Made by a program: the position numbers and the translations under genes. From positions 1 to 15,132 of the forward strand of contig JAGHAJ010000232.1 of NCBI GenBank assembly GCA_021161545.1: a DNA stretch of 15,132 nucleotides. Direction: 5' to 3'. How positions within the stretch are numbered: the first letter of the stretch is position 1; every line of letters starts with the position of its first letter. The notes below the pieces were generated by a model that ran no database searches, was not told the origin of the DNA, and saw only the letters and a list, made by a program, of their open reading frames with translations. This document shows, in pieces, positions 2-14,277 of the stretch. This DNA comes from Synergistota bacterium (GTDB lineage: Bacteria; Synergistota; JAGHAJ01).

Positions 2-1273
2 CTTGCTGTAGCGTTCAATACCTGCGACACAATGGAAAACCTCTGGCGCGAGGCAGAGGAGCTCAACATACTGCTCGAAATAATAAGAGAGGGAAGCAAG
101 GCAAAAACTCTGCAAGAGCTTGCAAGGATAATCACAACCACTATAGGCAGAGCGAGGGATTACGAAAACCTGTCTTTATTTACCAAAGAGGGCGACAAAC
201 TTGTCATTCAGTACTCCTACTACAAAGAGGGACACAAACCCTCACCAGACACCCCACTTTACGGACATACCATAGGAATAAACCAAAAGAGTGTTATAGT
301 AAGGGCAACAAAGCAAGGCGAGATGCAGAACATACCGGATACCTCAAAGGAGCCTGAATACCTCTGTGGATACGAGTGTTTCAATAGCGAACTTGCCGTT
401 CCCATAAAAGCAGGGGACGAAGTGATAGCAGTATTGAACACGGAAAGCAAAAAGCTAAACGCATTCGACACCCAGGAAGAGCTGTTCTTGTCTCTGGCAG
501 CAGAGGAATCTGCAGGCATGATACAGAACATAAAACTCCAAGAAGACTTGAAGGCCAAGAACGAAGAGCTTATGATGACAGTACAAGAACTCACAGAGAA
601 AGAGAGCAAACTAAGCTCCACAATAGAGCAGATAGAATCCTATACAAAAGAGATAGAGGAAACAAACAGAAAACTATCACAGAAAGAAGAGCAGCTCAAA
701 CGCACATACATGCAGACGATAAAGGCACTTTCAGAGCTGATAGAGATAAAAGACCCTTACACGAGGGGGCACTCATTGAGGGTAGCCAAGTGGAGCGTGC
801 GGATTGCAAAGGAGATGGGTATATCAGAACCATACCTGCAGAGGATATTCCTTGCAGGCCTGCTGCATGACATAGGCAAAATAGGGGTAAGGGGTGCGGT
901 CCTGAACAAGGCTGGCAAGCTAACCGAAGAAGAGTATGACGAGATAAAGAAACATCCAGTAATAGGTGCAAATATCTTGAGAGAGGTAAAGCACCTCCAA
1001 GACATCGTCCCAGTGATACTCCACCACCACGAGAGGTGGGACGGCAGAGGATACCCGGACGGACTAAAAGGAACAGGAATACCGCTATGGAGCAGGATAA
1101 TGGCAGTTGCGGATACCCTCGATGCGATGACATCCTCGCGTCCCTACAGAAAAGCTCTCTCTATGGAGGATGCTGTAGAAGAGATAAAGAGAAATGCGGG
1201 CAGGCAGTTTGACCCCGATGTAGTAGAAGCATTCCTGAAGATAATAATAGAGAGTAAAGACATACCTAAATAA
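2..1273 (+). CDS. GAF / coiled-coil / HD-GYP signalling protein (5' end outside window)
   Basis: Probable cyclic-di-GMP phosphodiesterase of the HD-GYP class, joined to a sensory domain. Numbering from the ATG at base 32, a GAF-like domain covers about residues 10-166, a charged coiled coil about 168-232, and the HD-GYP domain about 233-405. The HD pair is H279/D280 in the motif LLHDIGKIG. Later come HHHERWDGRGYP (H331-H333, G340-Y341-P342) and a DTLDAMTSSRPYR motif. The catalytic set looks intact, which supports activity by family knowledge. The frame is open upstream of base 32 and reads LAVAFNTCDT, which resembles the end of another GAF domain, and no Shine-Dalgarno precedes that ATG. I therefore treat the gene as 5'-truncated by the window, so its full input domains are unknown. 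The TAA stop lies inside the 3' end of convergent queA. No membrane segment is visible in the part seen, so it is probably cytoplasmic. Confidence 0.9.
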   Translation, partial: LAVAFNTCDTMENLWREAEELNILLEIIREGSKAKTLQELARIITTTIGRARDYENLSLFTKEGDKLVIQYSYYKEGHKPSPDTPLYGHTIGINQKSVIVRATKQGEMQNIPDTSKEPEYLCGYECFNSELAVPIKAGDEVIAVLNTESKKLNAFDTQEELFLSLAAEESAGMIQNIKLQEDLKAKNEELMMTVQELTEKESKLSSTIEQIESYTKEIEETNRKLSQKEEQLKRTYMQTIKALSELIEIKDPYTRGHSLRVAKWSVRIAKEMGISEPYLQRIFLAGLLHDIGKIGVRGAVLNKAGKLTEEEYDEIKKHPVIGANILREVKHLQDIVPVILHHHERWDGRGYPDGLKGTGIPLWSRIMAVADTLDAMTSSRPYRKALSMEDAVEEIKRNAGRQFDPDVVEAFLKIIIESKDIPK

Positions 1274-2288
1274 TCAACATTCCATCACCAAAGCTGTAAA
1301 AACGATAACGCTTCCTTATAGCAAAGTCGTAAGCACCCCGCATGAGATTCGTGCCACCAAAGGCATAAACAAGCATCAGAAGTGTTGATTTAGGCAGGTG
1401 AAAGTTGGTAACAAGTGCATCAACCACCTTAAACCTATACCCCGGATAGATAAAGATGTCTGTCCACCCAGATGAGGCTATTACCTGGCCAGAGTCGTTT
1501 GCAACCGTCTCTAAAACCCTGACGGCAGTCGTTCCAACGGCAACGATTCTTCTTCTCTCAGCTTTAGCAGTATTTATAAGGCCTGCTGCATCTTCTGATA
1601 TCTCAAAATATTCTGCATGCATCTGGTGATGTTCTATCTCATCCACCACAACAGGTCTAAATGTTCCAAGTCCTACATGGAGCGTAACAAACACAACCTT
1701 TACCCCCACGGATTTTATCCTTCGAAGGAGCTCCTCTGTAAAGTGGAAACCCGCTGTTGGTGCAGCAACAGAACCCGGCACCTTTGCATAAACTGTCTGG
1801 TAATCATCGGCACTCCTAACTTCCCTGCAGATATACGGTGGCAAAGGGACTTTACCTTCCTTTTGAAGAAAGTCATCAAAGCGCTCTGAAGGGGAAAAAG
1901 ACAGCAGTTTCCTCCCTTCACCAAGGTCCTTTATAACCTCTGCAGAAAAGCCACTATCACCGAAGCTGACTCTATCACCCACATGTAGCCTCTTTGCCCT
2001 CTTCACCAGCACTTCCCAAACGCCAGTGTCCCTCTCATTCAATAGGAGTATCTCCACCCTGCCACCTGTAACCTTCCTACCAAACAGCCTTGCAGGTATA
2101 ACCTTGCTCCAGTTAAAGACCATTACATCGCCTTCGCGAAGATAGTCAACAATCTCGTAAAAGCACCTTTCCTCCAACCGAGAGCTCTTTCTATCCACCA
2201 CCAAAAGACGACAGTGATCCCTGGGGTATGCAGGCTCCTGTGCAATAAGTTCCTCAGGTAATACATAATCAAATTCAGAAAGCTTCAT
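1266..2288 (-). CDS. queA: S-adenosylmethionine:tRNA ribosyltransferase-isomerase (QueA)
   Basis: Transfers and isomerises the ribosyl moiety of S-adenosylmethionine onto 7-aminomethyl-7-deazaguanine at the tRNA wobble position, giving epoxyqueuosine in the queuosine pathway. The 340-residue product has the usual family length. It begins with the characteristic LSEFDYVLPEELIAQEP and has an RDHCRLLVV strand. It also carries PTAGFHFTEELL, VTLHVGLGTF and the C-terminal VTNFHLPKSTLLMLV, all diagnostic of QueA. The ATG follows the TAA of the upstream spoIID-like gene with no gap (TAAATG) and has no obvious Shine-Dalgarno, so translation probably depends on coupling to that gene. The TAG stop overlaps the convergent HD-GYP gene by 8 bp. 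The usual partner tgt is not next to it here. It is the last gene of the minus-strand operon. Confidence 0.96.
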   Translation of the reverse strand: MKLSEFDYVLPEELIAQEPAYPRDHCRLLVVDRKSSRLEERCFYEIVDYLREGDVMVFNWSKVIPARLFGRKVTGGRVEILLLNERDTGVWEVLVKRAKRLHVGDRVSFGDSGFSAEVIKDLGEGRKLLSFSPSERFDDFLQKEGKVPLPPYICREVRSADDYQTVYAKVPGSVAAPTAGFHFTEELLRRIKSVGVKVVFVTLHVGLGTFRPVVVDEIEHHQMHAEYFEISEDAAGLINTAKAERRRIVAVGTTAVRVLETVANDSGQVIASSGWTDIFIYPGYRFKVVDALVTNFHLPKSTLLMLVYAFGGTNLMRGAYDFAIRKRYRFYSFGDGMLII

Positions 2289-3653
2289 TTAGTAAAGTTT
2301 CACCAGTTTCACTCCGGGATAGTAGTAAAGGAGTATCTGTTTATATGTATAACCATGCTCTGCCATTGCCTTAGCACCCCACTGTGACATTCCAACACCG
2401 TGCCCCCATCCTTTACCTACGAAGCGTATGACACCCTCACCAACTACCTGAGGCACAGTCTTTGCACTCCTGTAGCTGTACACTCGCTCCTTCTGAACAT
2501 CACTGTGCTGTCTAATATACTCCTCGACGGCCTTTTTTCGCGCTTCTGGATGCTTCAGGAAATACAGGAGCTGTTCAGTCGTAAAGTGCTTGAGTCTGAG
2601 GAGCTGCATAAATGTCAGCTTCTTAGCAGCCAAACCACCCTGCTTAGTAGAAGCTACAGAGGTAGTCGAAAACAATATCTCAAACTTTGTGCTTCTTAAG
2701 TTTTTATATCCAAGTACCGCACGCATCTGCGTGCCTTTGAGTCTCAAAATGCCATGAGTGTGCTTTACCTCAACAGAAAGCACCCTTCCACCTTTATCCC
2801 TTTTCGCAACCTTAACATACTCTATATCGCCCACATCTGGATACTTCTTCAGGAGCCTCTTCCTAAAATCGTCGATGGAAAGTTGATACTGCCAGTTGTG
2901 ATAAGGGGGGGTCTCCTCAAATTTTGCCTTAACAGACTTCAAATATGGATAATACTTACCCCATACACTCTTACTTGAAGAGGTCGCCCCTCCACTGTCA
3001 GAGTGATAGAAAGCAGCTATAGGTTTACCATGATATACAAGTATCTCTCCTCTCGTCTCGTTCACTGCCTTCCTTATTACATATCTCTCCGCCGCAACAC
3101 CTCTATACGCCTGAAATCTCGTGCTACCCACGATGTCAAAACCCGCCTTTCTATAACTACCCCTACTATACAGCGCATATGTCCTCGCAACAACCGCCTG
3201 AGCCTTGATTGCCTCTATGTTCCACTTAGGGTTTATCTCCATACCAAGCACACCATAAAGGTAGTGCTCAATGTCAACCACATTTATCAAGACCAGTTTA
3301 CTCTCATACATCCTCACAAGAAAATACCCCCTATAAGGCCTTGCCTTTATTCTCCCAGTATAAAACCTCACATTTATATACTTTCCCCTTGGGGGATAGA
3401 TGGCAATCTTCCGACCATACAGATGTTTACCTACTTTTATTCTATTACTGCTCGCCACAAATGTAATCTTCTTCACTCGTGCAATGACTCTGTGGGTAGT
3501 CTTGTCCACTACGGTCATCGGCCTACTACTGAACAGGGTAACCTTCTGAACACCAATGAGTATACCAACTTTCAGCCTCCTGGGTGCACGGGCATCTGCA
3601 ACAGCAGAGCCAAGAAGTAAAACAACAACAATTCCAAACAAAGCCCTTTTCAT
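2289..3653 (-). CDS. SpoIID/LytB-domain secreted protein
   Basis: Exported cell-wall protein of the SpoIID/LytB family, whose members include the peptidoglycan lytic transglycosylase SpoIID and amidase enhancers in non-sporulating bacteria. Residues 1 to about 23 form a signal peptide: KR, a hydrophobic VVVLLLGSAVA core, then ADARA. Family motifs are DIEHYLYGVLGMEINPKW (about 127-144, with E139 at the position of the proposed catalytic glutamate), IKAQAVVARTYALYSRG (149-165), YHSDSGGATSSSKSVWG (216-232) and the C-terminal GKGWGHGVGMSQWGAKAMA (413-431). About 75 lysine-rich helical residues (roughly 330-405) sit between the LRSTKFEI strand and the GWGHG segment, which makes the protein longer than a minimal family member. 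The ATG is preceded by AGGAGG at 3663-3668, which lies in the last codons of the upstream DUF2905 gene. Presence of SpoIID alone does not show sporulation. Confidence 0.92.
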   Translation of the reverse strand: MKRALFGIVVVLLLGSAVADARAPRRLKVGILIGVQKVTLFSSRPMTVVDKTTHRVIARVKKITFVASSNRIKVGKHLYGRKIAIYPPRGKYINVRFYTGRIKARPYRGYFLVRMYESKLVLINVVDIEHYLYGVLGMEINPKWNIEAIKAQAVVARTYALYSRGSYRKAGFDIVGSTRFQAYRGVAAERYVIRKAVNETRGEILVYHGKPIAAFYHSDSGGATSSSKSVWGKYYPYLKSVKAKFEETPPYHNWQYQLSIDDFRKRLLKKYPDVGDIEYVKVAKRDKGGRVLSVEVKHTHGILRLKGTQMRAVLGYKNLRSTKFEILFSTTSVASTKQGGLAAKKLTFMQLLRLKHFTTEQLLYFLKHPEARKKAVEEYIRQHSDVQKERVYSYRSAKTVPQVVGEGVIRFVGKGWGHGVGMSQWGAKAMAEHGYTYKQILLYYYPGVKLVKLY

Positions 3654-3659
3654 CAGAAA

Positions 3660-3890
3660 TTACCTCCTGAATATGATATTTATGACGATGCTCAAAAGGA
3701 TGCTTATAATGAGCGAGGTAACTAAAGGAAAGTAAAACACAAAATTCTTCCTCTGAATGTATATATCCCCCGGTAGTCTTCCAAGCCACGAGTGACCCCC
3801 AGTATGCCCCAGCAAGTAGAACAGTCCTCCTATTCCCACCAGAACTATACCCATTACTACAAGTATCTTTGCAAAATGGTTAAGCTCCAT
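3660..3890 (-). CDS. DUF2905 family small membrane protein
   Basis: A 76-residue protein with two predicted membrane helices: about residues 6-26 (KILVVMGIVLVGIGGLFYLL) and about 51-73. Between them lies the family signature LGRLPGDIYIQRKNFVFYFP, which I recognise as DUF2905. The function is unknown. The frame is open further upstream to an ATG at 3950, but that would lie deep inside ruvB. The ATG at 3888-3890 has a perfect AGGAGG nine bases upstream (3900-3905) and gives the normal family length, so I chose it. The gene overlaps the 3' end of ruvB by 11 bp. Its own last codons contain the Shine-Dalgarno of the following spoIID-like gene. A ruvB-DUF2905-spoIID-queA order occurs in several bacterial phyla, so the linkage is conserved rather than accidental. 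Confidence 0.88.
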   Translation of the reverse strand: MELNHFAKILVVMGIVLVGIGGLFYLLGHTGGHSWLGRLPGDIYIQRKNFVFYFPLVTSLIISILLSIVINIIFRR

Positions 3891-4839
3891 TAAATATCCC
3901 CTCCTTTTGGGAAAGAATCTCAAATGCTTTACGGGTTGCAACCCTGCCACGAGGCGTCCTTACCACCAACCCAAGTTTCATGAGGTAAGGTTCATACACA
4001 TCTTCAAGCGTATTTCTATCCTCACCCAGAGAAGACGCTATAGCAGATATACCAACAGGTCCCCCACCAAACCTCTCCACAATAGTCCTCAAAAAGGCGT
4101 AGTCCACTCTGTCAAGCCCATTCTCATCTATATTAAGAAAGGCAAGGGCTTCAGAGACTACAGTTTCATCTATAATGCCTTTCTCATGGACCTGCGCAAA
4201 ATCCCTTACCCTCCTTAAAAGTCTGTTTGCAAGCCGGGGGGTACCTCTTGAACTCCTTGCAATCGTCAAAGCCCCTCGAGGCGTAATCTCCACCCCAATG
4301 ACTTTGGCCGTCCCCATCACTATCTCGGCAAGTTCATTCACCGGATAAAAGTCCAAAGAGAAGACTATTCCAAACCTGCTCCTCAAAGGAGCTGAAAGCA
4401 TTCCAACCCTTGTTGTTGCTCCTATAAGGGTAAACGGCTGTAGCTGTATTCTAACGACCTTCGCCAGCGCACCTTTACCCGTTGGTATATCAACTACCCA
4501 ATCTTCCATAGCAAGATAGAGTATCTCCTCTATCGGCTTTCTGAGTCTGTGAATCTCATCTATGAAAAGGACATCTCTGTAGTTTAGTGCCGCAAGCAGA
4601 GATACAAGGTCTGCTGCCCTCTCGATGGCAGTTGCACCTACAGCGGTAAATCCGACACCAAGCTCATTAGCAACAATCCTGGCAAGTGTTGTCTTTCCAA
4701 GACCTGCAGGACCTGAAAGTATCATGTGGTCTAACGGTTCTTCTCTCCTCAAAGCAGCATCCACAAAAAGCCTTATTCTGGAAGTTACATCCTTCTGTCC
4801 CACAAACTCACCCAAACTGCTGGGTCTAAAAGAGTTCAT
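3880..4839 (-). CDS. ruvB: Holliday junction branch migration ATPase RuvB
   Basis: AAA+ motor that drives branch migration of Holliday junctions together with RuvA. The 319-residue protein has the RPSSLGEFVGQ start of the family. It has Walker A GPAGLGKTT (43-51), Walker B LFIDEIH (91-97) and sensor/arginine-finger segment IGATTRVGMLSAPLRSRFG (139-157). The C-terminal winged-helix domain carries ISAIASSLGEDRNTLEDVYEPYL and RTPRGRVAT. It is slightly shorter than many RuvB proteins because the N-terminal extension before the RP(S/T)SL motif is minimal. The ATG overlaps the ruvA stop as ATGA, and GAGGTG inside the ruvA 3' end acts as ribosome binding site. The 3' end overlaps the DUF2905 gene by 11 bp. 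ruvC, ruvA and ruvB form one translationally coupled set. Confidence 0.97.
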   Translation of the reverse strand: MNSFRPSSLGEFVGQKDVTSRIRLFVDAALRREEPLDHMILSGPAGLGKTTLARIVANELGVGFTAVGATAIERAADLVSLLAALNYRDVLFIDEIHRLRKPIEEILYLAMEDWVVDIPTGKGALAKVVRIQLQPFTLIGATTRVGMLSAPLRSRFGIVFSLDFYPVNELAEIVMGTAKVIGVEITPRGALTIARSSRGTPRLANRLLRRVRDFAQVHEKGIIDETVVSEALAFLNIDENGLDRVDYAFLRTIVERFGGGPVGISAIASSLGEDRNTLEDVYEPYLMKLGLVVRTPRGRVATRKAFEILSQKEGIFNGA

Positions 4840-5396
4840 CTGTTCACCTCAGCAAGAAACCTCTTCAACGCAGACTCTATACCCTCACTATCTTTTACAA
4901 CAAAATTACGCAGTTTATCCATTACCTCTCTTTTCCTATAGCCAAGCGCAACAAGTGCATCTATCATCTCACCCTTAACACCCTGAAGACCTTCCTGCCT
5001 TCTGCTCCACTCCCCCAGCTCCATCAGAATTCTTGCAGCCCGTCTGGGTCCTACACCGGGAACCTGCTCCAGGATAGAGGTATCACCCATATCTGCCCTA
5101 TACCTCAGCTCCTCAAATGAGACAAAAGAGACTATGTTAAGTGCCAACCTCGAACCTATATTGGGCAGGTGCCTCAGCTTGTTGAAAAACAGCCTCTCCT
5201 GTAATGTAGAAAAACCATAAATAGATACTGCATCTTTTCCAATGACAAATTCCGTATAAAGCCTACACCCCTGCCCCACTTCCAGCCTTTCATACAAAGA
5301 AACCGGCACATAGACTCTGTAACCTATACCATTCACATCTATAACCACATACGGCAGGTTCTTGCTATCAATCACACCTGAAAGGTACTCAAACAT
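4836..5396 (-). CDS. ruvA: Holliday junction DNA helicase subunit RuvA
   Basis: Four-way-junction binding subunit that loads RuvB rings onto Holliday junctions. The 186 residues show the OB-fold domain I (FEYLSGVIDSKNLPYVVIDVNGIGYRVYV, about 2-30). Two helix-hairpin-helix motifs follow, LPNIGSRLA (77-85) and VPGVGPRRA (112-120), then a linker and the RuvB-binding domain III (about 140-186, with DALVALGYRKREV). Length is slightly below the usual 190-205, mostly from a short linker. It starts inside the end of ruvC (8 bp overlap) and its stop overlaps the ruvB start by 4 bp. The closest purine-rich run, GGAGGG, is about 15 bases before the ATG, farther than ideal, so initiation may depend partly on coupling to ruvC. 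Confidence 0.96.
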   Translation of the reverse strand: MFEYLSGVIDSKNLPYVVIDVNGIGYRVYVPVSLYERLEVGQGCRLYTEFVIGKDAVSIYGFSTLQERLFFNKLRHLPNIGSRLALNIVSFVSFEELRYRADMGDTSILEQVPGVGPRRAARILMELGEWSRRQEGLQGVKGEMIDALVALGYRKREVMDKLRNFVVKDSEGIESALKRFLAEVNR

Positions 5397-5868
5397 TAAA
5401 ACTACTTTCCACCCTCCTCAAGGTCGCAACAGCAACTGCCAGAGCATCTGAAACATCAAAGGAAAGCCTTTCCCTTACGTCAAGTAACCTCTTCACCATC
5501 TCCCTTACCTGCTCCTTTTTCGCCCTACCATACCCTGTAAGTGCCATCTTCACTTCTATGGGGTTTAGCTCGACAACCGGTATCCCCTGCTGAGCAGCAA
5601 TCAACAACACCACACCTCTTATCTCTGCCACCCTTATGGCAGTCCTGACATTCCTGTTGAAAAAGAGCTTTTCCACTCCCAAAACTTCCGGTTTTACTCT
5701 ACCCACAACATCTCTTAAGCCATTATACAGCAAAAGTAAACGCCTTTCCCATGAAACACCTTTAACGCTTATGCTTCCAAAGTCAACTGCACGAATCTCG
5801 CTACCATCAGAGACAACAGCAGCATACCCAAGGGCATCACTCCCCGGGTCCACACCAACACACAGCAT
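5389..5868 (-). CDS. ruvC: Holliday junction resolvase RuvC
   Basis: Endonuclease that resolves Holliday junctions by paired symmetric nicks. The 159-residue protein has the RNase-H-like fold signature VGVDPGSDALGYA with catalytic D7. It has VEKLFFNRNVRTAIRVAEIRG with E66, TGYGRAKKEQV (111-121), and the C-terminal FDVSDALAVAVA carrying D138 and D141. The four acidic active-site positions are therefore all present. Length matches the family. The ATG follows the yebC TGA with no gap, and there is only a weak purine-rich sequence upstream. The gene lies directly upstream of ruvA and ruvB and overlaps ruvA by 8 bp, so all three Ruv functions are co-expressed. Confidence 0.96.
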   Translation of the reverse strand: MLCVGVDPGSDALGYAAVVSDGSEIRAVDFGSISVKGVSWERRLLLLYNGLRDVVGRVKPEVLGVEKLFFNRNVRTAIRVAEIRGVVLLIAAQQGIPVVELNPIEVKMALTGYGRAKKEQVREMVKRLLDVRERLSFDVSDALAVAVATLRRVESSFNV

Positions 5869-6615
5869 TCAGACTGCCATCTTCTCCATTATCTCGTCCG
5901 GGATATCAAAGTTGGCATAAACCTCCTGAACATCATCGTGTTCCTCAAGCTCTTCCATAAGCTTCATCATGTGTTCGGCATCCTTGCCTTCTAACTTAAC
6001 GGTAGATTGGGGTATCATGGTAACCTTTGCTTCAACCATAGATATACCTGCATCCTCAAACGCCTGTTTTACACTCTGAAAGTCCTTCGGATCAGTAGTA
6101 ACCTCTATGCTCCCATCCTCATTCGTCTTCACATCTTCCGCACCTGCATCTATTGCAACTTCCATAACCGCTTCTTCATCTGCACCCTCCAGATATATGT
6201 ATCCCTTACGTGTAAACATCCATGCAACACACCCGTTCTCACCAAGGCTACCACCGTGCCTTGAGAATATATGCCTCATCTCAGCAGCAGTTCTCTTCCG
6301 ATTATCGGTAAGCACTTCAACCATAACGGCAACACCGCCCGGGCCATACCCTTCATAAACTATCTCCTCATACGCAACGCCGGATAGCTCACCTGTGCCT
6401 TTTTGTATGGCCCTCTTGATATTATCCATAGGCATATTATATTCCCTTGCTTTGTCTACTGCCGCTCTAAGTCTCGGGTTAGCCTCAGGGTCTCCCCCAC
6501 CCTCTCTTGCCGCCACCATTATTGCCCTTATCAACTTACCAAATATCTTTCCCCTCTGGGCATCAACTTTCTGCTTCTTGTGTTTGATGTTTGCCCACTT
6601 AGAATGACCCGACAT
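5869..6615 (-). CDS. yebC: YebC/PmpR/TACO1 family protein
   Basis: Member of the YebC family. Some members are described as transcriptional regulators, and the family has also been linked to relief of ribosome stalling in translation (the TACO1 relation). The 248-residue protein begins with the hallmark [23 protein letters not shown]. It continues with the family core [36 protein letters not shown] and [21 protein letters not shown], and ends with an acidic helical third domain ([22 protein letters not shown]). Length is typical. AGGAGG at 6623-6628, overlapping the nadE stop, lies seven bases before the ATG. Location just before ruvC is very common in bacteria. Which molecular activity applies here cannot be read from sequence. 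Confidence 0.96.
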
Positions 6616-6627
6616 AAAAGACCCTCC

Positions 6628-7386
6628 TTAATCGATTTTGCACACCGGCACTGCAGAGCGCTTGTGCATATTCTTTGCCTTCAGCCTCTCTATCCGAACC
6701 TTCACATCACCTGAAACATCAAGCCCAAGTATGTATCTATCAAGCTCTTCGTATGTTATACCCATCTCTCCTTCATCAGTCTGCTCCTCCCATAATCCTG
6801 CAGATGGCGGTTTATCTATTATCTTCTCTGGTATGCCAAGGTATTCTGCAACCGCCTTTACCTCATGCTTAACCAGGCAGCCAATCGGTAGCATATCCAC
6901 ACCACCATCACCATACTTGGTGAAATACCCCACTTCCAGCTCACTCCTGTTCCCCGTTCCAGCAACCATGTATCCCTTGAGATTCGCAATATGGTAAAGA
7001 ACAGCCATCCTCAACCTCGGCTTTATGTTTATAACAGCATTTTCCTTTACATCCTTCCCGTCAATACCAACTGCCTTAAGAAAGGCATCAAACACACCAT
7101 CAAGCACAACTTCTCTCAGAGGAATATCAAACTTTTTGGCTACTAAAAGTGCATCTTCTCTATCTTCCTGCCTACTGTAGCACGGCATGTAAACTCCAAG
7201 CATGTCCTTTCCCATCGCCCTCTTAACAAGCACAGCAACAACACTTGAATCTATACCACCACTCATACCAACTACAATCCCATTTACCTTAGCTGACTCA
7301 ACCTGCTGCCTTATCCACGAAGAAAGCTTCTCGACCACATAAGAAGGCTTCCACCTAACAAGATAGCTATACAACCCTGCATTCAC
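6628..7386 (-). CDS. nadE: Ammonia-dependent NAD+ synthetase (NadE)
   Basis: Amidates nicotinic acid adenine dinucleotide to NAD+, the last step of NAD synthesis. The 252-residue protein carries the N-type ATP pyrophosphatase loop SGGIDSS (42-48), preceded by the GIVVGM strand. It also has NIKPRLRMAVLYHIAN, the substrate-site motif GTGNRSELEVGYFTKYGDGGVD, and KPPSAGLWEEQTDEGEMGITYEELD. There is no N-terminal carbon-nitrogen hydrolase (glutaminase) domain, so ammonia is the likely nitrogen donor unless a separate amidotransferase exists. The chosen start is GTG at 7384-7386; AAAAGGGG lies directly before it, closer than an ideal Shine-Dalgarno. TTG at codon 5 is an alternative. An intrinsic terminator ends only 8 bp before the start. 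The next gene, yebC, is 12 bp downstream. Confidence 0.94.
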   Translation of the reverse strand: MNAGLYSYLVRWKPSYVVEKLSSWIRQQVESAKVNGIVVGMSGGIDSSVVAVLVKRAMGKDMLGVYMPCYSRQEDREDALLVAKKFDIPLREVVLDGVFDAFLKAVGIDGKDVKENAVINIKPRLRMAVLYHIANLKGYMVAGTGNRSELEVGYFTKYGDGGVDMLPIGCLVKHEVKAVAEYLGIPEKIIDKPPSAGLWEEQTDEGEMGITYEELDRYILGLDVSGDVKVRIERLKAKNMHKRSAVPVCKID

Positions 7387-7403
7387 CCCTTTTCAAAAAA
7401 GGG
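7387..7403 (-). promoter_or_regulatory. Small inverted repeat covering the nadE ribosome binding site
   Basis: In the minus-strand RNA, CCCUUUU, a UUG loop and AAAAGGG form a potential 7-bp hairpin. Its 3' arm is the purine run just before the nadE GTG. Its 5' arm uses the last three C bases of the terminator stem plus its U tract, so it cannot form together with the full terminator. It could therefore mask the nadE start or act as a weak antiterminator. This is inferred from base pairing only. Confidence 0.35.
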
Positions 7404-7424
7404 AAGGCTTCAAATGCCTTCCCT
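7395..7424 (-). terminator. Rho-independent terminator after the chemoreceptor gene
   Basis: Read on the minus strand, GGGAAGGC (7423-7416), a seven-base loop (ATTTGAA) and GCCTTCCC (7408-7401) form a perfect 8-bp stem, which an A-U pair (7424/7400) can extend. Six T residues follow at 7400-7395. The stem starts at the last base of the mcp TAG stop. This is a classic strong intrinsic terminator. It lies only 8 bp before the nadE start codon. Confidence 0.9.
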
Positions 7425-9639
7425 ATGTATCCTCTTCTTCGACCTCCTGTATGGCCTTGCTACCTTCTTCTCTTGCTTCTGCTTCCGTCATGTATCCCCT
7501 CGAAACCAAGTCACTCTTGGAAACAATCGTAAAGCGCTCAACCTCCTCCGTAAGCGAGACAACCATCTCGCTGAGCTCCTGAGCAGCCACACCGAGGTTT
7601 TCTGCAACTTTGGTCTGTTCCTCAAGCGATGTAGAAACAGCCTCAACTCTGTCTTTCACGGCAGCAACCGCCTTGGTTACACCGTCTATCGCTGCTGCCA
7701 TTTCCTGTGTGGAAGCAGACTGCTCCTCAGTAATGGATGCTATGTCCTCTATCGATGTAGAAATCTTCCCTATCGCTTTCGTGATATTCTCTATCTCGTC
7801 ATACGTCACCTGTGCCTGTTTGTGCAGTTTCTCTATATCCTCCTGTTCTTTCTGAGCCCTTTCTGCAACCTTGTCCACCATGCCCTGTATCTTCATAATC
7901 AGATTGCCTATCTCACCTGCTGCATTGTTGGACTCTTCTGCCAGCTTCCTTACCTCTTCAGCAACCACTGCAAATCCTCTACCTGCTTCACCTGCACGGG
8001 CAGCCTCTATCGCAGCGTTCAGCGCAAGAAGATTCGTCTGGTCCGCTATGTTGGTAATCGTCTCCACTATCTTACCTATATCCTTAGACGCTACAACGAC
8101 ACCGTTTATAGCCTCAACAGACGCCTTGGAACCGGAAGTGACACGCTCTATCATGTTGAATGTATCAGATATTGCAGCAAGACCCCTTTCCGCAGCATCA
8201 GTGATCTCCTGTGCCTGTGCCGCCACATTCTGAGCACCCTCCGCAGCCGCCTGTGCAGAAGACGCTATCTCTTCAACACCCGCACTCGTCTCTTCGATGT
8301 TAGCAGCAACATCCTCTATCTCCTTGGATACCTGGTCCATGTTTGCCTTTATCTCTTCCGTATTGGCATTGGACTCCTGCGCAGTTGCAGCAAGGGACTG
8401 AGATATGTCTGCAACCCGTTTCACGGCATCTGCTATGCTGTGAAGTGTCCTGCTCGTCTTACCCATGAGCTCATTGAAGGCGGTGGCTATCTCCCCAAAT
8501 TCATCAGAGGTGTAAACCTTCCCGACAGCAGTGAAGTCTCCCTTAGCGGCTGACGCCATAATCTCTTTTATGTTGCTTGCACTCTTCGAAATGCCCCTTG
8601 CTATGAACATACCGAGCAAGATGATGATTACAGCAGCAACCACCAGTACAGTGATGTTCATCTTTCTCATGCTCCAGACAGGTGCCAATATCTGCTCTTC
8701 AGGAACCGCTAACCATATTACCCAGTGCCAAGGTTTAAAATACATTAAATAGCCAAACTTCTTAACGCCATTAAACTCATATTCATAAGCCCCTTTTCCA
8801 TGCTCCTTTGCAAACCCAACGACATTCCTTATAGACTTATACTTCTCGTAAGCGTACCTGTTGCCCACAAACTTCTTGTTTGGGTGGTAAACCGTTATAC
8901 CCGTTTTCGCATCTAATATGGACACGTATCCTTTTTTGCCGTAATGCACCTTCTCTGCAACCTCAACGACTGGCTTTTGTATATCACTTAAGGGTTTTCC
9001 AACATAAACAGCACCTATTATCCTGTTCATGTCATCTATGTAAGGTTTGTAAATCGTGTAGTATTCCCTACCAAGGACCGTTGCTATGCCCATATAAGTC
9101 TTTCTGCTCATTATAGCCTTATAAACAGGGGAAGAAGTTGGTATATATGTCATTATAGCCCTCGAACCATCCTTCTTTTTGATAGTCGTTACCACCCTCA
9201 AAAGTCCCTGAGGTATTACCTGAAAGACCGTTGCAGTTACCCCGAGGTTGTTTGAGACACGGTCGAGTATATTAGGCAAAAACCTCACCGATACACCAGC
9301 CATCGTCATATCCGGTATGGTGACCTCTTCCGTCTTCCCTGTAACCTGATTGGTAATCTTTACCTTTACCTTCTTCTGTTCCTCAAGGGACAGCCTGCCA
9401 GTAGCGTTCATCTCTTTTTCAACCAGAGTCAATGCCCTTTTAAGCGTATTACTAACATCCTCATGGGCAGCCTCTGCTGCATCGTAAACCGGCAGAGCCG
9501 CATGCATCATCCCCTCCTTTGATACTCTTTGAAGAGAATTAGACGCCGTATTGTAATCAAGAAGTCCTACCGTTACAAGTGGCACAATACCCACTATGAG
9601 CATAAACACCATTATCTTCGTACCAAGCCCCATCTTCAT
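7423..9639 (-). CDS. Methyl-accepting chemotaxis protein with periplasmic Cache domains
   Basis: Transmembrane chemoreceptor, 738 residues, signalling to CheA/CheW. TM1 is about residues 8-27. A large extracytoplasmic region (about 30-315) follows. Its first part, with [18 protein letters not shown] and [28 protein letters not shown], resembles the Cache_3-Cache_2 class. The second part, [18 protein letters not shown]...[24 protein letters not shown]-like, resembles a Cache_2 module. TM2 is about 328-349, HAMP about 349-401, and the coiled-coil signalling domain ends near 715. The conserved hairpin tip is at 530-571 ([32 protein letters not shown] in shortened form). No CheR/CheB pentapeptide tether is seen at the EEEDT C-terminus. 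The ATG at 9637-9639 has AAAGGGG upstream; M3 is a possible alternative. It follows the secreted-protein gene by 25 bp. The ligand is unknown. Confidence 0.95.
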
Positions 9640-9664: not shown

Positions 9665-10441
9665 CTACCTCCTGCGATGGCTATCCACTATTAGCACACT
9701 ATCAGCAATAAGCCTTCTGTATTTGAAGACCAACGGCTGAGAGACTATCATAAAGACATGCCTCCTGTAGTATATCACCAGTGTCCTCCTGTATCCCTCT
9801 CCCCACCTCCTTTTGGTATAAACAGCCCTTCCGTCTCCACTTATACCTACAAAGGCTGGTCGGGTGCTATCCTGCACCTTCAAGACCTGTCTTTTGTAGT
9901 AGTCCGCAACATCTTTCAAAGACATGGACACTTTGCTCACATAAACAGCAGCTAAAGGTAAACTCCTCTTCTTTAAGATATAGCAGTTAAAGTACTTCTG
10001 CAATCCCCTATCTGAAGTCAAAGGTTCAGCACACGGCAGGAGCATCACACCCTTACCGTAGGGCACAGCTTTCCCACTCTGCCTGCCTACTATTATATAC
10101 CTATCCTCATATTCATAAAAGAGACCAATCTCATAAATGAGCCTACCCTTACCCACCACGAGGAAAGGGGTATCCATGTCCATTATATCAAGCCAGAGTT
10201 TGCCCCTTGCCCTCTTGAGTATAGACCAGTGAAGCCTCTTCATCAAAGGTTGTGCTTTACCCCTATTAAACCGTATCTTTACTTCGATATCCTTATAGGT
10301 GTTTTCATAAACCACTTTGTGAAACGCAACCTCATAGTTATGCAACACACTCTCAACTTCTGGTATATACTTTCTTAACACAGAGGCCTCAGCAATGTTC
10401 ACAAAAGACAACATGCAGGCAAAAAGAAAGAGATACTTCAA
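9665..10441 (-). CDS. Secreted protein of unknown function
   Basis: I do not recognise this family. The frame is open up to an ATG at 10498, but that would overlap the upstream gene by 61 bp and spoil the signal peptide. Starting at TTG (10439-10441), which overlaps the upstream TGA as TTGA, gives [19 protein letters not shown], a good Sec signal peptide with AEA before the probable cut. GAGGG lies about 11 bases upstream. The product is then 258 residues. The mature part is basic and rich in Y, R, K and V, with predicted beta strands ([26 protein letters not shown], and [22 protein letters not shown]). Two cysteines (PCAEP and FNCYI) could form a disulfide. It ends in HRRR. It sits between a DUF362-ferredoxin gene and a chemoreceptor gene, 25 bp before the latter, so it could be a periplasmic partner of the receptor, but nothing in the sequence proves that. 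Confidence 0.75.
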
Positions 10442-11541
10442 TATCCAAGCACCCTCGCAGCAAGGCTTTTCTTTATCTCCATTGCACCTGTAGGACATAC
10501 CTCATTGCAGGTAAAACAGTATATGCACCTGTTCCTATCTATTACGGGATAAGGTTGCATCTTGATAGCCTCTGCGGGGCATGCACCTGCGCATACACCA
10601 CACTTTACACAACTGCTTTTGTCCAGAGAGGGATAAATCCTCACCAGCCTGTAACCTATAGCACCTATTATGCCAGACATCTTGAGCTTCCAGCTATCTG
10701 GCCTCTTAAAGGGAACAACATCTATGCTATCCCCTACTATCTCTATCTCATCAAGCCTGCCCTTACCCACTCCTATTGCATCTGCATAGGTTATCGTGTC
10801 CACCTCTTTCGGGTCAAAACCCATTATGTAAGAGGCAACCACATCCAAAGCCACACCATCAGCGGACGCAAGCAGGTACCCTGCCTTTTTGGGACTTCCA
10901 TGGGAAGGCCCATTACCCTCCATTCCAACAACCGCATCCATAACAGAAAGCTGTGGCATTACCACCCTGTATATATCCACAATACTTTCGGCAAGCATCT
11001 TCCTGTTACCAAGCATGTGCGCTGTCCTCCTCGTACCGGATGCCACCGTTCCAAAGATGTTTTTCACCGCACCGGTGATTAGCGTATCCACATGCGTCTT
11101 CATCTTCGCTACATTGACAATGAACCCTACCTCACCTACCATCTTTGAGAGGACTATCTCCTTTAAGTGCTTACCATCCATTCTGATACTCTCCATCCCA
11201 CTTGAGCGCAGCAACGCATACCTGATCCCTTCTGCATCCGCAACATCTTTAACCCCTGTCCTGACAAAAAGCTCATCTTCCTGCCCATCAAATATAAAGC
11301 CCGGATTGTCAGCTATCACAATGTCACTTACCTTGTCCTTAAAATACCTGACAATAGCCCTTATAACCTCAGGGTGCGTCGTAACTGCTCTATCAGGCTC
11401 CACAGGAGAGATGAGATTCGGTTTTACCAAGAGCCGAGAAGGAGGCTGAAGATCAGGCAAATACGAAAGCAGTCTATATATTGCCCCTTCAACCTCCTCT
11501 CTACTATACGAAGAGCACCTCACAACTGCAACTCTCGACAC
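10438..11541 (-). CDS. DUF362 domain protein with a C-terminal two-cluster ferredoxin domain
   Basis: A 367-residue putative iron-sulfur protein. The DUF362 domain spans about residues 1-285, with LLVKPNLISP (37-46), VVTTHPEVIRAIV-like RAVTTHPEVI (51-60), VNVAKMKTHVDTLITGAVKNIFG (142-164) and MEGNGPSHGSPKKAG (207-221). The C-terminus has two CX2CX2CX3C motifs (C311, C314, C317, C321 and C339, C342, C345, C349), each followed by proline, so two [4Fe-4S] clusters are expected. No signal peptide is visible, so it is likely cytoplasmic. The biochemical role of this domain pair is not established; electron transfer or metal/cofactor handling is possible. Start is GTG at 11539-11541, directly after the TGA of the nicotinate phosphoribosyltransferase gene. 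The 3' end overlaps the secreted-protein gene by 4 bp. Confidence 0.9.
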   Translation of the reverse strand: MSRVAVVRCSSYSREEVEGAIYRLLSYLPDLQPPSRLLVKPNLISPVEPDRAVTTHPEVIRAIVRYFKDKVSDIVIADNPGFIFDGQEDELFVRTGVKDVADAEGIRYALLRSSGMESIRMDGKHLKEIVLSKMVGEVGFIVNVAKMKTHVDTLITGAVKNIFGTVASGTRRTAHMLGNRKMLAESIVDIYRVVMPQLSVMDAVVGMEGNGPSHGSPKKAGYLLASADGVALDVVASYIMGFDPKEVDTITYADAIGVGKGRLDEIEIVGDSIDVVPFKRPDSWKLKMSGIIGAIGYRLVRIYPSLDKSSCVKCGVCAGACPAEAIKMQPYPVIDRNRCIYCFTCNEVCPTGAMEIKKSLAARVLGY

Positions 11542-12576
11542 TCACTTCACCCTCTTCAACTTCTTGTTCGGCATCTTACCGGGTAGTCTGCCCCTCTTTG
11601 CAACAGGCACACCTTCCACCTCTTTTATATCCATCGTCATATCTATAGGTGTGCCGTGAACTATATAACTTCCTACCCCAAAGCCGTCCACAGGGGCATC
11701 CTTTAGCCGCTCAATCTTCTGAGGATTCACACCGCCAGATACAAATATCTTCACATCTCCAAAGCCCTCAAGGTCAAGCCTGTATCTTACTTCCTCTACA
11801 AGTTCAGGGGTTATCCCCCCTCTTTCCTCAGGTGTATCAAGTCTTATACCATTTAACTTACCTCCAAGTGCCCGTGCAACCCTGAGAGATTCTTCAGCCT
11901 CATCCTTGAATGTATCAACTAATATTATCCTCTGCTCTTCAGGAGGAACAGCCACATCATACAGGCGTGCAACTTCCACCGTATCGCCAATAATAAGTGC
12001 TACTGCATGCGGCACCGTCCCTTTTGGCAGGTAACCTGCAAGTTTCGCACCAAGAATGCAGCTCGCACCATCAACTCCGCCAACAATTGCAGCCCTTTCC
12101 ATAACAGGGGCAACCGCAGGGTGTGTATGCCTTGCGCCGAAGCAGAGAACAGTCCTATCGCCTGCAGCTTTCTTACATTCCCTTGCAGCAGTAGCCCAGC
12201 TTGAAGACGCAGAAAGAAAGCCAAGGATTACCGTCTCCCACTGGCCAAACTCATCATACGGACCTTCTATCCTCATAACTACTTCTTTCCTGAAGAACTC
12301 CTCACCCTCTTCTATCGACCAGATGCTCACATCAGCACCATCCAGGAAGTTCAAGACCTCCTGAACGCCTGCCATAACGCCATCCTTGCGGGGAAAGATT
12401 TCAGCGGTTACAACAGTATGCTCCTTACCCGCCTTCCTTAGTATATCCAAGGTCTTCAGAAAATAGACATCCGTTGTGTAACCTGCAAGAATCTCCTCAT
12501 GTGTGGCAGAAAAGAGCCTCCTTTCTGCACTTACCCGCAAGCTCACCACATCTTCAAAGCTACTGAGCCTTTTCAA
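11542..12576 (-). CDS. pncB: Nicotinate phosphoribosyltransferase (NAD salvage)
   Basis: Converts nicotinate and PRPP to nicotinate mononucleotide, the first Preiss-Handler step. The 344-residue protein is of the short type also found in archaea. Recognisable segments are LFSATHEEILAGYTTDVYF (21-39), TAEIFPRKDGVMAGVQEV (57-74), FGARHTHPAVAPVMERAA (146-163), GGVDGAS (166-172), LNGIRLDTPEERGG, KIFVSGGVNPQKI and DGFGVGSYI, typical of the TIM-barrel type II phosphoribosyltransferases. Quinolinate phosphoribosyltransferase has a related fold, but the FPRKDGV and FGARHTHP motifs favour nicotinate. Start is TTG at 12574-12576, set by a perfect AGGAGG seven bases upstream that overlaps the secG stop. 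The next gene starts immediately after the TGA. nadE, the last enzyme of the same pathway, lies further down the same strand. Confidence 0.92.
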   Translation of the reverse strand: MKRLSSFEDVVSLRVSAERRLFSATHEEILAGYTTDVYFLKTLDILRKAGKEHTVVTAEIFPRKDGVMAGVQEVLNFLDGADVSIWSIEEGEEFFRKEVVMRIEGPYDEFGQWETVILGFLSASSSWATAARECKKAAGDRTVLCFGARHTHPAVAPVMERAAIVGGVDGASCILGAKLAGYLPKGTVPHAVALIIGDTVEVARLYDVAVPPEEQRIILVDTFKDEAEESLRVARALGGKLNGIRLDTPEERGGITPELVEEVRYRLDLEGFGDVKIFVSGGVNPQKIERLKDAPVDGFGVGSYIVHGTPIDMTMDIKEVEGVPVAKRGRLPGKMPNKKLKRVK

Positions 12577-12854: not shown

Positions 12855-12882
12855 ATTATAACATAGTTGGAGAATTTATCAA
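12855..12882 (-). promoter_or_regulatory. Probable sigma-70-type promoter for the secG operon
   Basis: On the minus strand, TTGATA (12882-12877) is separated by 16 bases from TATAAT (12860-12855). The TG of an extended -10 (TGTTATAAT) is present. This leaves a leader of about 30 bases before the secG start. The -35 matches consensus at five of six positions. It overlaps the plus-strand promoter, so the two may compete. Confidence 0.65.
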
Positions 12883-12940: not shown

Positions 12941-13765
12941 ATGATAACTATGGGAGCGCTGACACCACATCCTCCAATCATCGTACCAGAAGTAGGTGGG
13001 AGAGAAACAAGGAATGTAACTTCAACAATAGAGGCGATGAAAAGGCTTTCTGAGATTATGTGGAGTAAAAACCCCGATACAGTGGTGTTGATAACACCAC
13101 ACAACCTCGTATTCAGAGACGCTGTAGGGATATTGATAGACGATGTATTAAGTGGTTCTCTTGCATCATTCGGTGCACCAGAAGTGAGGCTTTCACTTCA
13201 AAACAACATGTCTCTCGTGAAAACCATACAGGAAGAGTGTTTGATGAGCAATTTCCCCACTGCAGAGATAGGAGAAAAGTTCAGATACAGATACGGTATG
13301 ACACAGATACTCGACCACGCATCGATAGTCCCGTTGTACTACTTGCTGAACGGCAAGGAATTACCACTTGTCATATTAACAATGGCGTTTATGCCATACG
13401 AGAGGCTGTTCGAGTTTGGAAAGATACTGCAAAAGGCACTACAGAGATACGAAGGAAATGTGGTGTTAGTGGCAAGTGGAGACCTCTCCCATAGGCTCAC
13501 GCCCGGTGCACCTGCAGGCTACAACCCTATGGGTAAGGTGTTTGACAAAAAGGTGGTGGATGTAATAAGGAGTTTCGACAGTAAAGGACTTTTAAGTATA
13601 GACAAAGAACTGATAGAGGAAGCCGGGGAGTGCGGCTACAGGCCTTTAGTCATGTTGTTTGGGGCATTTGACGGCATAAAGGTAAAGACAGAAGTCCTTT
13701 CATACGAAGGACCATTCGGAGTGGGATACTGCGTGGCAGCTATACACCCGGAGAGGGAGGTGTAA
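12941..13765 (+). CDS. amrB: AmmeMemoRadiSam system Memo/LigB-like protein (protein B)
   Basis: Homologue of class III extradiol ring-cleavage dioxygenase catalytic subunits (LigB) and of Memo. It has 274 residues. Motifs seen: [16 protein letters not shown] with H10, VVLITPHN with H54, [18 protein letters not shown] with H126, [18 protein letters not shown] with H184, and LIEEAGECG with E230. The His-His-Glu trio H10/H54/E230 is at the places where LigB-type dioxygenases bind iron, so a metal site is inferred. The true substrate is unknown; members of this group next to AMMECR1 are named by gene context rather than activity. In some clostridia I recall a similar protein fused to AMMECR1; here the two are separate genes two bases apart. 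ATG at 12941 has a strong AGGAGG upstream. It is the first gene of the plus-strand cassette. Confidence 0.88.
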
Positions 13766-13767
13766 CG

Positions 13768-14277
13768 ATGCATCCACTGGTTCTGCTCGCAAAACAGGCC
13801 GTTGAAGAGTATGTAACGAAAAGGCGCATTATACCTGTGCCAGAGGAACTCACGCCCGAGATGAAGCAGAAAAAGGGGGTATTTGTCTCTCTGCACAAAG
13901 GGAAGAATCTCAGAGGTTGCATAGGGACATTCATGCCAACAAGAAAGAATGTAGCCGAGGAGATAATATACAATGCAATAGCTGCCAGCTCAGAAGACCC
14001 AAGGTTCTATCCCGTAACACCAGAAGAGTTACCATACATAGAGTATTCCGTAGATGTACTTGAGCCCCCAGAAGAAGTAAAGGATATATCGGAGCTTGAC
14101 CCAAAGGTTTATGGAGTAATAGTAGAGAAGGGTTTTAGAAAAGGTCTGCTACTGCCAGACTTAGAAGGGGTAGATACCGTAGAGCAGCAGCTATCCATAG
14201 CGAAGAGAAAGGCAGGGATATGGGAAGGCGAGGAAGATGTTAGGATATACAGGTTCACAGTTACAAGATACCATTAA
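13768..14277 (+). CDS. amrA: AMMECR1-domain protein (AmmeMemoRadiSam system protein A)
   Basis: A 169-residue AMMECR1-domain protein. The family signature LRGCIG is at residues 48-53, preceded by [13 protein letters not shown]. It is followed by [38 protein letters not shown] (in shortened form) and [29 protein letters not shown]. The conserved C51 could be catalytic or bind metal. The molecular function of the family is unknown. The ATG is two bases after the stop of the Memo-like gene, with GGGAGGTG five bases upstream, so the two are co-translated. The 3' end overlaps the start of the radical SAM gene by 41 bp. Direct co-operation with both neighbours is inferred from the recurrent gene trio. 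Confidence 0.9.

Follow-up and report, generated by a model that had tools for sequence, protein, structure and literature searches.

A candidate leaky terminator between a chemoreceptor gene and the nadE gene block in a draft bacterial genome

Main finding

On the minus strand of the window, an intrinsic terminator closes the chemoreceptor gene mcp and stands directly before nadE. The window is a complete contig of 15,132 nucleotides; the draft genome it comes from comprises 288 contigs and 1.58 Mb. We consider it moderately probable that this terminator acts constitutively inside an operon and brakes transcription only in part. Transcription would begin either at the promoter of pncB (12860) or at weaker sites within the gene that precedes mcp; RNA polymerase would then pass through mcp and meet the hairpin at the mcp stop codon. 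Most polymerases would stop there, leaving an mcp message that is stable and ends in a hairpin; a minority would read through and produce the message for nadE-yebC-ruvCAB-spoIID-queA. We propose that the nadE Shine-Dalgarno sequence (SD) would be free on this read-through message because the terminator hairpin, and not a weaker alternative, would form. Co-transcription of these genes, incomplete termination and the efficiency of termination are deduced here from sequence.

Gene order in the window and in relatives

Read on the minus strand, the window contains pncB, a DUF362-ferredoxin gene, an orphan gene, mcp, nadE, yebC, ruvC, ruvA, ruvB, DUF2905, spoIID and queA (Table 1). Gene calling relied on a simple model of hexamers and SDs in place of a published gene finder. 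In the presumed upstream unit, pncB is the first gene that could be recognised. The product of the orphan gene had no match in Pfam or NCBIfam and no homologue in 40 relatives.

Table 1. Features of the window, listed in the direction of minus-strand transcription.
Feature	Coordinates	Strand	Details
Strong promoter upstream of pncB	12855..12882 (site 12860)	-	TTGATA-16-TATAAT with TG; score 16.8
pncB, nicotinate phosphoribosyltransferase	11542..12576	-	PRK08662, E 2.4e-143
DUF362-ferredoxin protein gene	11541-10438	-	
Orphan protein gene, between the DUF362 gene and mcp	9665-10498	-	
mcp, chemoreceptor	7423..9639	-	Cache_3-Cache_2, HAMP, MCPsignal; stop codon TAG 7425-7423
Intrinsic terminator	7395..7424	-	Stem AGGGAAGGC/GCCTTCCCT, loop ATTTGAA, six T; dG -15.9, z -3.95
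Competing hairpin CCCUUUU/AAAAGGG	7385..7403	-	Drawable, judged chance complementarity; -7.1 kcal/mol
nadE SD, core of AAGGGGTGA	7384..7390	-	Same AAAGGGGTG form precedes mcp
nadE, NH3-dependent NAD synthetase	6628..7374	-	TIGR00552, E 4e-72
yebC-ruvC-ruvA-ruvB-DUF2905-spoIID-queA	1266..6615	-	Conserved block headed by nadE

The relatives used for comparison belong, at the closest, to the same phylum. The most similar NadE proteins share 57-59% identity with this one; bacterium GBS-1 and bacterium 42_11 are among the records they come from. In all 12 relatives detailed, nadE comes first in the order nadE-yebC-ruvC-ruvA-ruvB-(spoIID)-queA and the genes upstream are unrelated. Among these 12, spoIID was undetected in one family, f3, and DUF2905 was detected in f3 only. 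No mcp gene was found beside nadE in the flanks examined in the 12 relatives, and the mcp-nadE order occurred in no other genome examined. The 171 bases around the junction gave only chance matches to 185 genomes of the phylum, among them a terminator of ordinary type, similar in sequence, that lies between other genes (L206) and 23 matching bases within a gene (L205). A conserved pncB-mcp cluster was considered and rejected: the relatives' pncB genes have no mcp, DUF362 gene or counterpart of the orphan gene within about 1.5 kb. Separately, the LigB/Memo-like and AMMECR1 genes that diverge from pncB in the window (12941-14277, plus strand) lie directly 3' of queA in the f3 relatives, which points to a rearranged version of the same neighbourhood.

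The terminator at the mcp stop codon

The terminator was the top-ranked terminator-like site of the window in a terminator scan. Its arms (7424-7416 and 7408-7400) enclose the loop at 7415-7409, and the T tract runs from 7400 to 7395 within the minus-strand letters ...GATACATAGGGAAGGCATTTGAAGCCTTCCCTTTTTTGAAAAGGGGTGAATGCAGGGTTGTATAGC... The initial annotation had described an 8-bp perfect stem followed by six U ending at 7395. The hairpin and the six T were borne out, but the stem is longer, with nine perfect pairs when A7424-T7400 is counted, followed by a seven-base loop. The G+C-rich hairpin runs directly into a U tract, and its stability of -15.9 kcal/mol exceeds chance, being equalled by none of 200 shuffles. 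The mcp stop codon lies inside the foot of the stem: the A and G of TAG are the first stem bases, starting at A7424. Both flanking genes are on the same strand, and no promoter was found between the terminator and the downstream gene.

The start codon of nadE

The start of nadE had been placed at GTG 7386, 8 bp from the terminator. We rejected this start as unlikely: it lacks a usable SD, since the SD would run into the start codon itself. The most likely start is TTG 7374. It is preceded by AAGGGGTGA at an aligned spacing of 11, which is inside this genome's range, and TTG serves as the start codon in 98 of the 560 scored starts of this genome. Further, the residues that follow it, LVRWKP, align with an N-terminal VR-P or YR-P segment in several relatives. 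The gap between the T tract and the start is therefore 20 nt rather than 8. The annotation had allowed that the start might be elsewhere, which TTG 7374 supports, and it had argued that no normal promoter fits between terminator and gene; the latter also holds for the 20-nt gap. A start at GTG 7338 is possible from the sequence. Its SD is poor, and it would drop residues that align with the relatives.

The competing hairpin over the nadE SD

The initial annotation had further proposed that an alternative hairpin hides the nadE SD and forms a two-state switch with the terminator. The pairing, CCCUUUU/AAAAGGGG, can indeed be drawn, at -7.1 kcal/mol, but it is not beyond chance: its z is -1.4, and among 200 shuffled sequences 19 folded equally well or better. 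When the same 3' half of the terminator was joined to 559 real leaders of this genome, 40% folded at least as well, as did 63% of those leaders with a purine-rich SD. Such a hairpin is therefore expected of any C/U-rich terminator arm that adjoins a purine-rich SD. Minimum-free-energy folding, which had been named as a check, favoured the terminator (-15.9 versus -7.1 kcal/mol), and in the folding model of the free RNA the pair probabilities were 0.99 for the terminator and 0.045 for the alternative. Mutually exclusive hairpins of the attenuator or riboswitch kind are thus not supported at the junction, as the antiterminator pairing is not above chance and loses to the terminator. Moreover, when a ribosome was simulated by barring pairing down to 7412, the terminator was lost, the alternative rose to 0.83 and the nadE SD was mostly paired. 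Antitermination and nadE translation would therefore oppose each other, which is not expected of a coherent switch, and the two-state proposal is not supported. No Rfam match above threshold was obtained for an RNA family or aptamer at the junction.

Promoters for the nadE block

Promoters were scored with a matrix trained on this genome's own intergenic and upstream regions, which resembles TTGACA, a 16-18 nt spacer and TGNTATAAT. The promoter upstream of pncB was the only strong minus-strand site found upstream of nadE, at a distance of 5.5 kb; scores of at least 16 occur inside genes at about 0.01 per kb. Weaker minus-strand sites were located at 10223 and 9774. Around and upstream of the junction (7340-7700, 360 nt), no promoter exceeded background: the best score was 6.7, and the upper quartile in random in-gene stretches of 150 nt was 6.4. 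A promoter in the 3' end of mcp, which the annotation had suggested might be attenuated at the junction, was likewise rejected, as nothing there stood above background.

The relatives presented a different picture. An extended -10, TGNTANAAT, occurs upstream of nadE in 25 of 29 of them (L003-L031), where 0.027 per 130 nt would be expected, and mostly lies 50-85 nt before the aligned nadE coding region. In this genome it is absent within 600 nt of nadE. Because this typical -10 is missing and the only strong promoter is that before pncB, the nadE block probably depends on read-through, in agreement with one of the options of the initial annotation. The missing TGNTANAAT, together with the unrelated upstream genes in the relatives, suggests that this lineage lost the usual nadE promoter and that the block was placed behind the pncB-mcp unit. 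As a separate matter, the phylum-wide TGNTANAAT before nadE could anchor promoter annotation in the phylum.

Terminators elsewhere in the genome

Genome-wide counts were made on 699 kb in 110 contigs using a stricter terminator scan. We found 21 intergenic terminators versus 1.3 expected from the in-gene rate, an enrichment of about 15-fold. Same-strand neighbours in this genome are tightly packed, with a median gap of 3 nt, and for several terminators, on other contigs too, the following co-directional gene begins 16-31 nt away. Two are situated between the gene for an ABC substrate-binding protein and its permease gene (L121, plus strand, 6405-6465; L185, 1040-1086), and these are likely to be internal terminators that set stoichiometry. 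In two others, an extended -10 directly follows the T tract, with a short leader: TGGTATAAT in L094 (about 6643-6710), after a flagellin gene, and TGGTAAAAT on the minus strand of L121 (oriented 9436-9496), after a hydroxylamine-reductase-like gene. In these compact junctions, judged by their motifs, terminator and next promoter overlap. Gene names at the L094, L121 and L185 terminators come from reading the translations, with no family search. The junction in the window fits the promoterless class of the genome's terminators.

Alternative explanations

The terminator may instead be controlled by translation of mcp: a ribosome finishing mcp would cover the 5' arm (7424-7416), block the terminator and allow transcription of nadE, and lagging or failed translation would lead to a stop. 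We regard this as unlikely, though several observations speak for it. The stem starts at 7424, inside TAG, and is thus within the reach of the ribosome, and masking to 7412 abolished the terminator in the folding model. In Escherichia coli, the efficiency of a terminator 5 bp past a stop codon falls from about 90% to under 10% as the trailing ribosome covers it, an effect that is abolished by uncoupling translation (PMC4824070). However, masking also hides the nadE SD, and proximity to a stop codon is common in this genome: 9 of the 18 terminators with a same-strand upstream gene begin within, or at most 12 nt past, its stop codon. Stop codons are also found inside or next to stems at convergent gene ends (L145, L175 and L144), where only termination makes sense and a terminator that the ribosome could switch off would serve no purpose. 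Coding sequences average 56.2% purine over the 110 contigs, and rho is present. Purine loading is common in thermophiles too, which makes this an indirect indication. In Bacillus subtilis the purine content is 54%, and purine bias together with rho is a reported sign of runaway transcription (PMC13323073); RNA polymerase there outruns the ribosome, and terminators lie a few nt past stop codons (review, PMC7858274). These features suggest that the genome is a candidate runaway-transcription lineage. The stop-to-stem distances, purine content and rho argue, indirectly, against a ribosome-operated switch. Overall, a partial brake that acts passively seems the likelier reading. A stronger version, in which the terminator senses chemoreceptor translation, is very improbable. 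The ribosome completing mcp would antiterminate into the nadE, DNA-repair and queuosine genes, and the second hairpin would delay nadE initiation until the ribosome leaves. If true, it would tie NAD synthesis to translation of a membrane receptor through a single hairpin that overlaps a stop codon.

It is also quite unlikely that nadE has its own promoter over the junction (TTGAAA at 7396 with TGTATA at 7373 or TATAGC at 7371), with translation starting at GTG 7338 after a short leader; in that case the terminator would simply end the mcp unit. The L094 and L121 minus-strand junctions provide a precedent in the same genome, and some NadE homologues start near the conserved W. The scores of the proposed sites, 6.7 and 6.5, are nevertheless those of background, sites of at least 6 occurring at about 3 per kb inside genes, and GTG 7338 carries the defects described above. 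Fuller termination has something in its favour: six U and a stem of -16 kcal/mol resemble a strong terminator, so that read-through may be small for an essential nadE. We think it very unlikely, all the same, that termination is essentially complete and nadE is served by an unrecognised promoter within mcp, or that the junction is an assembly artefact. A promoter for an unmodelled sigma factor could lie inside mcp, but its transcripts would still cross the terminator. The division of the draft into 288 contigs is compatible with an artefact; such junctions between terminator and gene recur, however, on other contigs.

Relation to known systems

A leaky terminator within an operon is a known bacterial means of setting gene dosage. 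Experiments in Ruminiclostridium cellulolyticum showed that terminators between binding-protein and permease genes set transporter stoichiometry with 20.7-96.1% termination, which exceeds 90% for hairpins with long U tails, termed Type I (PMC9045158). The partial brake proposed here resembles these internal terminators of ABC importers in that a hairpin and U tract directly follow one gene of an operon and stand a short way ahead of the next, with a promoterless gap, and the same genome also has the binding-protein/permease version. It differs in that the junction parts two functionally unrelated genes. By its six-U tail it would correspond to Type I. A stem that starts where a translated gene has its stop codon recalls the ribosome-repressed terminators and pyrBI-type attenuation of E. 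coli (PMC4824070), but this genome has signs of uncoupled, runaway transcription, and neither a leader peptide nor a pause site was found. In Methanococcus maripaludis, in-operon termination is similarly reported to lower the expression of later genes (PMC10450193); those sites are archaeal, whereas the present one is a bacterial hairpin terminator.

If the partial brake is real, this lineage would have exchanged the phylum-wide promoter of the essential nadE-yebC-ruvCAB-queA operon for leaky read-through out of an upstream unit unrelated to it. It would be a concrete example of how a lost promoter can be bridged, with a terminator acting as the dosage setting. The genome would also add one more deep-branching bacterial lineage to those with indirect evidence for runaway transcription. 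As mechanisms, promoter loss with read-through and runaway transcription are both known already.

Other leader terminators

Two further terminators lie in leaders. At L161 (6247-6458), the leader of a methylmalonyl-CoA-mutase-like gene holds a strong promoter (score 19.4) and a terminator; nothing in Rfam matched this leader above threshold, and it is possibly an uncharacterised attenuator. At L068 (4097-4346), a T-box leader with a terminator scored 92.5 bits (E 4.6e-21), just under the Rfam default gathering threshold of 93.
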